NCBI GenBank assembly: GCA_007127105.1
Contig: SLAA01000240.1
Span: 1 to 33,290 of the forward strand
DNA from: Spirochaetales bacterium
Lineage (GTDB): Bacteria > Spirochaetota > Spirochaetia > DSM-27196 > SLAA01
DNA length: 33,290 nt
Direction of reading: 5' to 3'
Shown here: positions 14,137 to 20,827 of the stretch, piece after piece
How the letters are laid out: each line of letters begins with the position of its first letter
Numbering within the stretch: the first letter of the stretch is position 1
The notes under the pieces: generated by a model
What the model was told of the DNA's origin: nothing
Database searches by the model: none
What the model saw: only the letters and a program-made list of their open reading frames with translations
Position numbers and translations under genes: made by a program

Positions 14137-15330
14137 CTATCCCAGGATGGGAATAATTGCCAGCAGCACACCAGCGGCAACGGCCGAACCCAGTACACCC
14201 GCCACATTCGGGCCCATCGCATGCATAATGAGATAGTTCCCGTGATCCTCATCACGTCCAAGACGCGCGGCTACGCGCGCCGCCATAGGAACGGCCGACA
14301 CACCGGCCGCGCCGATGAGTGGGTTAATCTTGTTGCCCGGCAGCATGTTCAGAACTTTTGCCAGCAATACTCCCGCCGCAGTCCCTATAGCAAAAGCAAC
14401 CAGGCCAAGGAGCACGATCCCAAGGGTCTCGGGACGGAGAAACTCGTCGGCACCAAGTTTTGAGCCCACTGCAAGACCCAGGAGTATAGTCACAATGTTT
14501 ATCATCTCGTTGCCAGCTGCCCGCGCTAAGCGTTCGGTGACGCCACTCTCGCGTAGTAGATTACCGAACATGAGTGCCCCTATCAGCGGAGCCGCGGTCG
14601 GCAAGAGCAAAACACACAAGGCGAGTGCCGCTAAGGGGAAGAGAATGCGCTCAAGGCGAGAAACCTGTCGCAGTTGCTTCATGCGTATTCCACGTTCAGC
14701 CTTGGTGGTGAGCAGGCGGACTATTGGGGGTTGAATGATAGGAACCAGCGCCATGTAGGTATAGGCGGCAACGGCAACCGCACCCAGAAGTCGAGGTGAC
14801 AGTTGTGAGGCTATGAAAATGGCGGTTGGACCGTCGGCACCGCCAATGATTGCAATTGCCCCTGCATCGGCAAGGGTGAATCCAAAACCGAAAAACTCGG
14901 TAAGTATGGCTGTACCAATAACGGTAGAAAAGATACCAAACTGGGCGGCTGCTCCAAGGAGCGCGGTTTTGGGGTTGGCAATGAGTGGGCCAAAGTCGGT
15001 CATTGAACCGATTCCAACAAAGATAAGCACCGGGAAAAGGCCGGAGGCAATTCCAAAGCCGTAGATCTGACCCAGGAAGCCACCAAACTCGGTTGTGATC
15101 TCGAGCGTCAGCGGATCAATGATCTCTCGCGTAGCTGTAGCAATGCCCGCAATCGGAACATTTGCAAGAATTCCACCAAAACCAATGGGAATAAGAAGCA
15201 GTGGTTCAAACTCTTTGCGGATAGCCAGATAAATGAGAAGGCTGGACACCGCGATCATGAACAGGCTGCCAATATCCATAGCGGCAATTCCGGTAGCGAG
15301 CCATACTTCGTGTAGCGTCTGTACAAACAT
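14137..15330 (-). CDS. oadB: Sodium-ion-translocating decarboxylase beta subunit
   Basis: Polytopic; [89 protein letters not shown]. Confidence 0.95.
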
Positions 15331-15347
15331 GCGGTTACTCCGGTTGC

Positions 15348-17252
15348 CTAATGCGTGATTCGTAACAGGACCGAGTCGGCGGCAACCTGATCCCCGGTTT
15401 CTACAAATACATCGGTCACGATGCCTCGCACCGGTGACTCAACCGGAGTCTCCATCTTCATGGCCTCCAGTACAATGATCTCGTCGCCTTTGTTGACCGA
15501 GGCTCCCGGCGCGACCGACATTCGCAAAACAAGTCCGGACATGGGCGCCTTGAGATCTAAGACAGCCTTGAACTCATCTGCTCCGTCGGTGCGCTCGGCT
15601 GCGGTCGTATCCGGTGGAAGATCGCCAGCCGGGCTGTGTCCGCCAGCAACCGGGTGCGACCCAGCCGGCCCAGGAGCGCCAGCCTGTATAGCTACCTGGT
15701 ACTCCTTACCATTCACCAGCGCGGTCTGGCCCTTGAGGTCAATTTCGTAGCGGTGGCTGTCAATGGTTACGCTGTAGCGGCCGGAATGATTGCCGACCGG
15801 CACACGGTCACCATGCGCACCGCCGGACTCGCGGGGTGTCGAGCCTTCGGAGCCATTCTTACGCACGCCGAGCCGGCCCTTTCCTGCCAGAAAGGCAATC
15901 CCTTTTTCTTTACAGGTTGCAGCAATGAAAACATTCTCGTCGGAAACGGGAATGTCTGTATCTATGAGGGAGGCGCGCGCCGCCTCCATACCCTTTTTGG
16001 GGTCGCGTTCGTTTATATCAAGAGGACTCTCGGTGGTCGCTTCAAGCCCCAGCTGTTCAGTTGCAAGCCTCACAACCTCGGGATCAGGTGGAACCGGAGT
16101 CTTCCCGTAGTACCCGAGCACCATCTTGCCGTAGCCCTCTGCAATGCGTTTCCATGGGCCAAGCATGACGTTGTTGAAGGCCTGCTGGAAATAGAACTGC
16201 GAAACCGGAGTCACCGAGGTTCCAAAACCGCCACGGCTAATGACCTCTCCCATGTTGCGAATAACCTCGTCAAAGCGGTGCAGGAGGTTATTGTCCCGCA
16301 GCATCTGTGTGTTTGCAGTAAGTGCGCCACCCGGCATTGGACTAAAGGGAATGACCGGTTCAACCGCAATTGCCTCGGGGGGCACAAAGTACTCGCTCAT
16401 GCACTCGCGAAAAACTTCCTCGGCCTCGATCACTTTCTGAATATCTATACCGAGATCATACTTGGTGCCGCGCAGTGCGTGCCACATGGTGACGATGTCT
16501 GGTTGGCAGGTGCCGCCAGAAACCGGCGCCATTGACAGGTCTATCTGATCTACGCCGGCGTCAAGTGCTGCCATGTACTGGGAAATACTTACCCCCGCAG
16601 TTTCGTGGGTGTGAAACGAAATGTGCACATCCTTGCCGAGCATCTCACGAGCGCCCTTGATGGTGTCATACACCTTGCTGGGTACCGAGGTACCGGAGGC
16701 GTCCTTAAAGCACACTGAGTCGAATGGAATTTCAGCGTCGAGGATCTGCCTGAGCATCTGGAGATAGAACTCCGCAGTGTGCGCCCCCTCGACGTCAGGT
16801 GGTAACTCCATGAGTGTGACACATACCTCGTGCTTCAGGCCTGCCTCGTTAATGCAGCGGCCACTATAGACCAGGTTCTCTACATCGTTGAGTGCGTCAA
16901 AATTGCGGATCGTTGTAATGCTGTGTTTCTTAAAGAGCTCAGCATGCAGTTTGATAATGTCTCGCGGTTGCGAGTCGAGGCCTACCACATTTATGCCACG
17001 AGCAAGTGTCTGGAGGTTAGCCTCCGGTCCGGCAGCTGCTCGAACCGAGTCATGCATGGCGAACGCATCTTCGTTGCAATAGAAGTACAGAGACTGAAAG
17101 CGAGCTCCGCCTCCAATTTCATGATGCATAATGCCGGCGTTGCGTGCCGCCTCGACCGCGGGTAAGAAATCCTCGGTGAACACCCGTGCTCCGAATACCG
17201 ACTGAAAGCCGTCTCTGAATCCGGTGTTCATGAACTTGACGAGTTTTTTCAT
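15348..17252 (-). CDS. oadA: Oxaloacetate decarboxylase alpha-type carboxyltransferase with C-terminal biotinyl domain
   Basis: [44 protein letters not shown], and C-terminal biotin motif [11 protein letters not shown]. Confidence 0.93.
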
Positions 17253-17841: not shown

Positions 17842-18858
17842 ATGAGCGGCGTGCCCAATCCAACACCGGCCCCAGCATTAGAACCGGCGGCCTTACCACC
17901 CTTTCTCTGCGTTTTTGGGCCTACCGGGACCGGCAAGACCGAGATCTTACTCAAGGCTTTTGCCGGACGGGCCGAGGTGATTAGTGCGGACTCAATGCAG
18001 GTGTACAAGCAGCTCAATATTGGGACCGCCAAGCCGTCCCCTGCGGTACAGCGTGAGTTACCACATCATTTGATAGATATACTCAGCCTGCATGAAGCGT
18101 ACGACGCCGGTAGTTTCGTCAGGCACACTGAACAGCTGCTTCCCGAAATAGCAGCCCGTGGAAAGATTCCCATTGTGTCCGGGGGAACGGGGTTCTACAT
18201 CCGGGCGCTGCTGTACGGACTTCCGGAAGCTCCGCCTTCCGATCCGGAGCACCGTCGGCGTCTAGAAGAGCGGCTAGTGCGAGCCGGGGCAGAGTCCTTA
18301 CGGCGAGAACTTGAAGAAGTAGATCCCGTTTCTGCAGCCAAGATCAAGGAAGCCGACCACTATCGTCTTGTACGGGCCCTTGAGGTCTACTACAGTTCCG
18401 GTCGCCCGCGGTCGAGTTATCAGGTACCCGATACCATGCGCCCCGGTCTGCGGGTAGTCGCCGTGAACCTGAACCGCCCGCGGCCCAATCTGTATGCCCG
18501 CATTAATGCCAGGGTGGAGTCCATGCTTCAGGCAGGTCTTGCCGAGGAAATCTTGGGACTGGCTCGGGCCGGTTACCATGCGCAACACGCAGGCATCCGC
18601 AGTATCGGATACAAAGAGTTTTTCGACGCACTTGAGGAAGGTGTTTTGACCCTCGAGTCTCTCCAAGGTGCCGGTGCTTCTGAGAATCCGGCCGTAAAGG
18701 AGCTCGTCCGCCTCATTCAGCGGAATAGCCGACACTACGCAAAACGACAAATGTTGTTTTTCCGTAGCATAGAAGAGGCAATAGGCATTCACGCCGACGA
18801 TGATCAGTCCTTACTGAGAGTCGCAAGCTCATTATTTTCGAGCTCGGACAGGCCTTGA
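17842..18858 (+). CDS. miaA: tRNA dimethylallyltransferase MiaA
   Basis: FGPTGTGKTEILL, ISADSMQVYKQLNIGTAKPS, PHHLIDIL, GGTGFYIRALLYGLPEAP, IGYKEF, AKRQMLFFR. Confidence 0.97.
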   Translation: MSGVPNPTPAPALEPAALPPFLCVFGPTGTGKTEILLKAFAGRAEVISADSMQVYKQLNIGTAKPSPAVQRELPHHLIDILSLHEAYDAGSFVRHTEQLLPEIAARGKIPIVSGGTGFYIRALLYGLPEAPPSDPEHRRRLEERLVRAGAESLRRELEEVDPVSAAKIKEADHYRLVRALEVYYSSGRPRSSYQVPDTMRPGLRVVAVNLNRPRPNLYARINARVESMLQAGLAEEILGLARAGYHAQHAGIRSIGYKEFFDALEEGVLTLESLQGAGASENPAVKELVRLIQRNSRHYAKRQMLFFRSIEEAIGIHADDDQSLLRVASSLFSSSDRP

Positions 18859-18925
18859 CAGTGGACGGCCTAATAAGCATACTGAGCGCTCATCTTTCAC
18901 CTGTTGCCTAAGGAGTAGATTAAGA

Positions 18926-19021
18926 GTGCCGTGTGGACGTAAGCGTAAGCGTAAAAAGATAGCAACTCACAAGCGTAAGAAAAAACTCAGAAAGAACCGT
19001 CACAAGAAGAAGGCTCGATAA
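18926..19021 (+). CDS. 31-aa AURKAIP1/COX24-domain (bS22/mS38-like) small basic protein
   Basis: GTG start, (M)PCGRKRKRKKIATHKRKKKLRKNRHKKKAR stop; AAGGAG 10 nt upstream. Absent from the ORF track because it is too short. Confidence 0.8.
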   Translation: MPCGRKRKRKKIATHKRKKKLRKNRHKKKAR

Positions 19022-19148
19022 CGGGCGTGTAGGGTTCTTAGTGGCCCACATCCATGAAAGATAAGGCTGTCACACCACATTGGTGGGCAGCCGCTTTCAG
19101 TCCGCTACCGTTCACCAGATCCGGTGTTTAGCCTGCCAGCAGGTTCGT

Positions 19149-20021
19149 ATGACTATTATTCCACTACCTCGCATGAGGACCCTTTCCATTGGAAACACTC
19201 CCCTGGTAATGGGGATACTCAATTGTACGCCAGACTCGTTTTACCCTGGGGGGCGGGCTGAGTCCTGCGCGGCCGCGGTGAGGCAGGCGCGTGAAATGAT
19301 TAGCTCCGGCGCCGACATCCTGGATATAGGTGGCGAATCGAGCCGTCCTGGTAGTGCCCCGGTCTCACTGAGCACTGAACTTGATCGGGTGCTTCCGGTA
19401 CTTAATGAAGTCCGCACATTTTCTGACATCCCAATCTCGGTGGACACCCGTAAGTCTGAGGTAGCACACCGTGCCCTGCTTGCCGGGGCAGACATCATTA
19501 ACGACATCTCAGCACTTCAGGAAGACCCGGAGAAGGCCGACATTGCAGCCGAACATGGGGCGGCGCTGGTCCTTATGCATATGCGCGGCACCCCTGCGAC
19601 TATGCAGGTTTCGCCGTTCTATGTGGATCCCGTGGGTGAGGTGCTGAAGGAGTTAGAAGCCGCGGTTGAGGTTGCCTGCAAAGCTGGCGTACCGAAGAAC
19701 AGCATTATCCTTGATCCCGGCATTGGATTTGCCAAACGACTGGAAGATAATATTGCGGTTCTCAGGGGCATTCCACGGCTCCGAGCCTCTGGTTTTCCTA
19801 TTCTCATTGGACACTCACGAAAATCTTTTCTTGGCGCCCTGTTGGCGGACGAAGACGGAAACGTGCGACCCGTAGAAGCAAGACTGGCTGGCGGCTTGGC
19901 TGTTTCTCTGTTCGCGGCTACCCATGGAGCGGAGATATTGAGAGTTCATGACGTTGCAGAAACTGTCGATGCTCTAAGAGTAGGACTGTTTTTGTCCTCC
20001 CCGGGGGAGAGCGATAGGTGA
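19149..20021 (+). CDS. folP: Dihydropteroate synthase
   Basis: LVMGILNCTPDSFYPGG, GADILDIGGESSRPGSAPV, PISVDTRKSEVA, ADIINDISAL, ILDPGIGFAK, GHSRKSFL. Start uncertain (19080 or 19149). Confidence 0.95.
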   Translation: MTIIPLPRMRTLSIGNTPLVMGILNCTPDSFYPGGRAESCAAAVRQAREMISSGADILDIGGESSRPGSAPVSLSTELDRVLPVLNEVRTFSDIPISVDTRKSEVAHRALLAGADIINDISALQEDPEKADIAAEHGAALVLMHMRGTPATMQVSPFYVDPVGEVLKELEAAVEVACKAGVPKNSIILDPGIGFAKRLEDNIAVLRGIPRLRASGFPILIGHSRKSFLGALLADEDGNVRPVEARLAGGLAVSLFAATHGAEILRVHDVAETVDALRVGLFLSSPGESDR

Positions 20022-20827
20022 ACTGGTTTACCGACATTTGGCTGCTGCGCGGTTATGTGCTGCCGGCGCTCGATATTTTGTTACTCGCGTTTCTGTTTTA
20101 CAAGGGATATCAGATCCTGGTGCAGACTCGCGCCGTGCAGCTTGTGCGAGGTGGAGTGTTCGTCGGCCTGACCTATGCCACCGCCTACGTCTTTGATCTT
20201 CGTACGCTTTTGTGGTTGCTCAATATTGTTGCTCCAAGCCTTGTCATAGGAATTGCAATTATTTTCCAGCCTGAGCTGAGGAAGATCTTCACGCGTATTG
20301 GACAGGGGCGTTGGTTACAGTTCACCGAGACCTCCAAGACCAATCAACTGGATGCCGTAGTACACGCCGCCGAGGTGCTTTCAATTCGCAAGAGGGGTGC
20401 GCTCATGGCATTTGTTCGTCAGGTTGGCCAGAAGGGGGTTATTGAGACCGGTACACGGCTCGACGCGGATATATCGAGCCAACTCTTGCTGTCGATCTTC
20501 GGCTATGATACCGCCCTTCATGACGGTGCGGTCATTATTGAGGGCAGCAAAATGGTGGCAGCTGGTTGCTTGCTCCCTCTTTCAGACCAAGTGGATATTC
20601 GAAGAAGCTTTGGAACACGGCACAGAGCAGCCTTGGGCCTGGTTGAGGAGTCCGACGCGGTAGTGCTGGTGGTCTCCGAGGAAACTGGGGCGGTTTCTCT
20701 CGCCTATGATGGCAACCTCTACTACGACCTTGGTACTGACGAAGTGCGTGCGCGTTTAATGGATCTTCTGAATATCGCGGGCATAAGTGATTTGCAGCAG
20801 GAGGAGGTGACCGCCTTTGAAGATTAG
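20018..20827 (+). CDS. cdaA: Diadenylate cyclase CdaA (c-di-AMP synthase)
   Basis: N-terminal TM helices; DAC domain with YDTALHDGAVII and SFGTRHRAALGLVEESDAVVLVVSEETGAVS; 4-nt overlap with folP. Confidence 0.95.
   Translation: MNWFTDIWLLRGYVLPALDILLLAFLFYKGYQILVQTRAVQLVRGGVFVGLTYATAYVFDLRTLLWLLNIVAPSLVIGIAIIFQPELRKIFTRIGQGRWLQFTETSKTNQLDAVVHAAEVLSIRKRGALMAFVRQVGQKGVIETGTRLDADISSQLLLSIFGYDTALHDGAVIIEGSKMVAAGCLLPLSDQVDIRRSFGTRHRAALGLVEESDAVVLVVSEETGAVSLAYDGNLYYDLGTDEVRARLMDLLNIAGISDLQQEEVTAFED

Follow-up and report, generated by a model that had tools for sequence, protein, structure and literature searches.

A short GTG-started gene between miaA and folP in a Spirochaetales bacterium very probably encodes ribosomal protein bS22 and is conserved in nearly the whole of Spirochaetota

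The window analysed here, i.e. the whole stretch of 33,290 nucleotides from a Spirochaetales bacterium, contains on its forward strand the genes miaA, folP and cdaA, the last followed by a gene with a YbbR domain. Between miaA and folP lies a very short open reading frame, which is absent from the standard list of open reading frames and falls under the usual gene-finding cut-offs. The features of the locus are the following:

17842-18858, forward strand: miaA (tRNA dimethylallyltransferase; IPPT, PF01715, E = 7.5e-76), the upstream neighbour of the short gene
18855-18883, forward strand: predicted sigma-70-type promoter, TTGACA-N17-CATACT (10/12), overlapping the miaA stop codon
18910-18915, forward strand: Shine-Dalgarno sequence AAGGAG, 10 nt before the GTG
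18926-19021, forward strand: putative bS22 coding sequence, GTG start, 31 codons plus TAA, assigned from its translation, its match to 8fmw and its conservation in the phylum
19080-20021, forward strand: folP (dihydropteroate synthase; Pterin_bind, PF00809, E = 3.2e-84), start not fixed (TTG at 19080 or later)
20018-20827, forward strand: cdaA (diadenylate cyclase; PF02457, E = 7.6e-38), the next gene after folP

The reading frame at 18926-19021 translates as (V/M)PCGRKRKRKKIATHKRKKKLRKNRHKKKAR before its stop codon. A sequence-only reading of this DNA had proposed a GTG-started frame preceded by AAGGAG and placed between miaA and folP; the first part is borne out by the sequence and its translation, and the second by the matches of the flanking frames to PF01715 and PF00809. 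The peptide, very basic and 31 residues long, has the features that define bS22 of the Borrelia and Bacteroidota type, namely a length of about 30 residues, more than half of them lysine or arginine, and a core of THKRKK and RHKK, the residues of which are invariant or nearly so in a 14-row alignment of its relatives. Its own genome holds one copy. Elsewhere in the window, at 14137-17252 on the reverse strand, a gene for a beta subunit of the sodium-pumping oxaloacetate decarboxylase type adjoins one for a biotin-carrying carboxylase subunit.

A single-sequence search of PDB chains gave three matches in all, every one of them named as a ribosomal or an AURKAIP1/COX24-domain chain: the 30S protein bS22 of 8fmw (E = 4.1e-9, with 25 of 28 residues identical), a chain of 7jil labelled S22 or L38 (E = 3.5e-7) and the AURKAIP1/COX24-domain protein of 9i5v (E = 4.8e-7). 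From the literature, we take the source of 8fmw to be Borrelia burgdorferi and that of 7jil to be Flavobacterium johnsoniae. A profile built from 14 relatives found the same chains at 8.5e-14 (8fmw), 1.1e-13 (7jil) and 5.9e-12 (9i5v), and no further PDB chain. In other words, the protein matches bS22 chains of ribosome structures over its full length, and the best explanation is that the frame very probably encodes the small-subunit ribosomal protein bS22. The earlier proposal of a small-subunit ribosomal protein is thus supported, by these matches together with the phylum-wide conservation and the conserved GTG start described below.

The sequence-only reading had also suggested a search against the AURKAIP1/COX24 family, and this search gave nothing: PF08213 (COX24_C) matched neither the window protein nor its genome even at E <= 10, and the Pfam and NCBIfam models gave no bS22 match at E up to 10, for the window protein or in whole-genome searches. 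As a control, the bS22 sequences of Borrelia and F. johnsoniae were also unmatched in the same Pfam and NCBIfam libraries. Since the libraries also miss homologues that have been verified in structures, their negative result is uninformative.

Conservation is extensive. The gene was recognised in 51 of 61 near relatives, in 32 of the 33 among them with at least 90% completeness and low contamination, and in 271 of 295 Spirochaetota genomes, nearly always as one match per genome; it is, in short, a single-copy gene, vertically conserved in the lineage. Conservation in relatives, on which the earlier reading had made its case depend, is therefore present. A profile search of 20 genomes without a match yielded one further convincing match (2.5e-4), the others that it gave being doubtful. 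About 8% of the phylum's genomes have no recognisable bS22, so the ribosome perhaps dispenses with it in some lineages. In five families (f44, f47, f53, f56 and f57), several near-complete genomes gave no convincing match to bS22, a few of them having doubtful partial matches, and there the gene seems lost or unrecognisable; a few families may thus lack the protein or have a very divergent one.

Where the gene is present, it is conserved at the protein level. Relative to the window sequence, 674 of the codon changes are synonymous and 52 non-synonymous, while the frame itself leads one to expect about 1 in 5 single-base changes (50/252) to be synonymous. The invariant residues include P2, C3, G4, T14, H15, K16, R17, R25 and H26, among others. 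Among the nearest loci, the start codon is GTG in 43 of 47 and ATG in the remaining 4, and a Shine-Dalgarno-like motif precedes the gene in all 47 of these spirochaete loci. Could the frame nevertheless be a product of chance in a stretch biased towards lysine and arginine? It is short and of low complexity, and the HMM libraries do not match it. That said, the PDB match at E = 4.1e-9 and the mostly synonymous divergence argue against chance, as does a degenerate DNA pattern for its opening eight codons, which has a single match in the window and none in 100 shuffles. Its conservation already refutes a chance origin, the probability of which we regard as negligible.

A different question is whether the peptide has its main role away from the ribosome, as a cationic antimicrobial or bacteriocin-like molecule, which has been proposed as a second activity of the bS22 of Cutibacterium acnes. 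The peptide is indeed very basic, and C. acnes bS22 inhibits several bacteria in disk assays as well as E. coli cell-free translation (PMC10085706). However, a phylum-wide, single-copy gene with near-invariant residues is in keeping with a fixed site of rRNA binding, not with a competitive peptide, the sequence has no apparent export signal, and the immediate neighbours include no immunity or transport gene; we therefore consider an activity mainly outside the ribosome very unlikely. As a ribosomal protein, moreover, bS22 had been called accessory in the earlier reading. The ribosomal part of that description stands, but the adjective undersells a protein that is near-universal in its phylum and the Borrelia gene for which is an essential-gene candidate (PMC10618245).

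As to gene order, miaA is the immediate upstream neighbour, in the same orientation, at 23 of the 30 nearest loci, and miaA, folP or cdaA lies beside the gene in 27 of the 30; the order miaA-bS22-folP-cdaA is widespread in near relatives. Among the matches listed, many Treponema and Spirochaetales records contain bS22, some with this whole row. Borreliella tanukii and Borrelia persica also have the order miaA-bS22; neither folP nor cdaA was detected next to the Borrelia gene in the stretch examined. It is from these named records that the phylum of the genomes counted above is taken to be Spirochaetota. Since folP follows the frame immediately in most close relatives, one may ask whether the frame works in cis, as a leader peptide or upstream open reading frame the translation of which regulates folP or cdaA, rather than encoding a protein that acts in trans. 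Yet Borrelia and many other groups conserve the peptide without a detected adjoining folP, i.e. conservation independent of folP is already observed; no Rfam RNA element, riboswitch or leader, was found near the frame, and homologues have been built into ribosome density. Such a regulatory role is, in our estimate, extremely unlikely.

A search between miaA and folP gave no terminator-like site. The promoter-like site at 18855-18883 ends 42 nt before the GTG, and taken by itself means little, a single such site in 2.5 kb being no more than chance (1.3 expected). When the 140 bases before bS22 were scanned in each of 63 distinct loci spanning several families, sites of at least 10/12 were found in 73% of the loci, as opposed to 2.3% of mononucleotide shuffles, with the provision that the loci are related and do not represent 63 independent events. 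The recurrent words are TTGAC[A/C/G/T] and CATA[A/C]T. This recurrence makes a separate transcription start probable, though inside the gene row, and bS22 probably has its own transcript, from the predicted promoter. Two Borrelia-type loci differ, showing no recognisable strong promoter by the same scan.

By sequence, the close kin of the protein are the bS22 proteins of Borrelia and Bacteroidota, and not that of mycobacteria. The protein of the Lyme-disease bacterium Borrelia (Borreliella) burgdorferi (bb0822, 8fmw), described in 2023 as highly basic, GUG-started and unannotated, was seen in cryo-EM density only, mass spectrometry not having found it; it occupies a pocket formed by 16S helices h2, h27, h44 and h45 and also touches 23S H68. 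Its gene, without transposon insertions, was grouped among essential-gene candidates (PMC10618245). It resembles the protein described here in its aligned residues, its start codon, its omission from annotation and, in the Borrelia genomes examined, miaA directly upstream, and differs in a few substitutions (R9L, A13S and L21R) and in C-terminal residues. The chains of 7jil and 9i5v share the length and the pattern PxGxKRKRxKxATHKRKKxxxxNRHKKK, but have serine or asparagine for cysteine at position 3, and histidine at 10; the 7jil-type chain carries both labels, S22 and L38, in depositions.

The name AURKAIP1/COX24, or bS22/mS38-like, which the earlier reading had given the protein, holds in part: homology to bacterial bS22 is supported, the 9i5v chain itself being named an AURKAIP1/COX24-domain protein, but neither mycobacterial bS22 nor mS38 was recovered by sequence. 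The PDB search with the 14-relative profile reached neither actinobacterial bS22 nor mS38, and PF08213 did not link the protein to either of them. Actinobacterial bS22, from Mycobacterium smegmatis and Cutibacterium acnes, sits in the same 30S pocket in solved ribosomes (PMC10085706, PMC10618245), and the C. acnes and F. johnsoniae proteins are only 37% identical (PMC10085706). Mitochondrial mS38 (AURKAIP1/Cox24, PF08213), a longer protein than spirochaete bS22, places an analogous bent basic helix in that pocket (PMC10618245). The link to mS38, like that to mycobacterial bS22, is structural and comes from the literature, which relates them by their position and shape in the ribosome.

Beyond spirochaetes, a degenerate DNA pattern scan, in which matched loci without a bS22-like peptide were not counted, found such peptides, among the matches listed, in records named Omnitrophota, Ignavibacteria/Melioribacter, Kapabacteria, Calditrichota, Fibrobacterota, Rhodothermia, Gemmatimonadota, Latescibacterota, Krumholzibacteriia and WOR-3, most of these records being metagenome bins, the names of which can be wrong. 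Fibrobacterota records have RRRRDRHKKK in place of KLRKNRHKKK, and other variants, ending in RHLKK, occur in Omnitrophota records. The bS22-like peptide MPCGRKRKLQKMRTHKLKKRRKKMRNKKK comes from a record named Candidatus Altiarchaeales archaeon, which may be either a bacterial contig binned wrongly or a relative from the archaea. We consider it likely that bS22 of the Borrelia and Bacteroidota type is a ribosomal protein of old origin and wide occurrence among bacteria (Spirochaetota, Bacteroidota/Ignavibacteria, Fibrobacterota, Omnitrophota, WOR-3, Gemmatimonadota and others), with a recurrent promoter of its own in spirochaetes, overlooked because its gene has about 30 codons, often starts with GTG and is invisible to current HMM libraries.

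If the Borrelia and Cutibacterium structures are a guide, the basic, bent helix of bS22 would fill the h2/h27/h44/h45 rRNA pocket of the 16S close to the decoding centre and, through its basic residues, touch 23S helix H67/H68, adding a contact between the subunits; the protein would thereby stabilise the neck and decoding region of the 30S subunit as well as the 70S ribosome. Transcription from its own promoter within the miaA-folP-cdaA row would permit a higher output of bS22 than of its enzyme neighbours.

This protein has already been published for Borrelia, start codon included, and the discovery of bS22 in further species was predicted in that paper (PMC10618245), of which the spirochaete gene described here is a case. 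What is added here is that bS22 is near-universal in the phylum, that its gene order is shared and its promoter recurrent, and that current HMM libraries are blind to this type. Since Pfam and NCBIfam models do not flag it, automatic annotation by them will go on missing it. The result adds a ribosomal protein missing from the standard list of open reading frames, in one spirochaete and in nearly its whole phylum, and, as bS22 lies close to the decoding centre, a site of action of several classes of antibiotic, its distribution bears on the ribosome models used for antibiotics.
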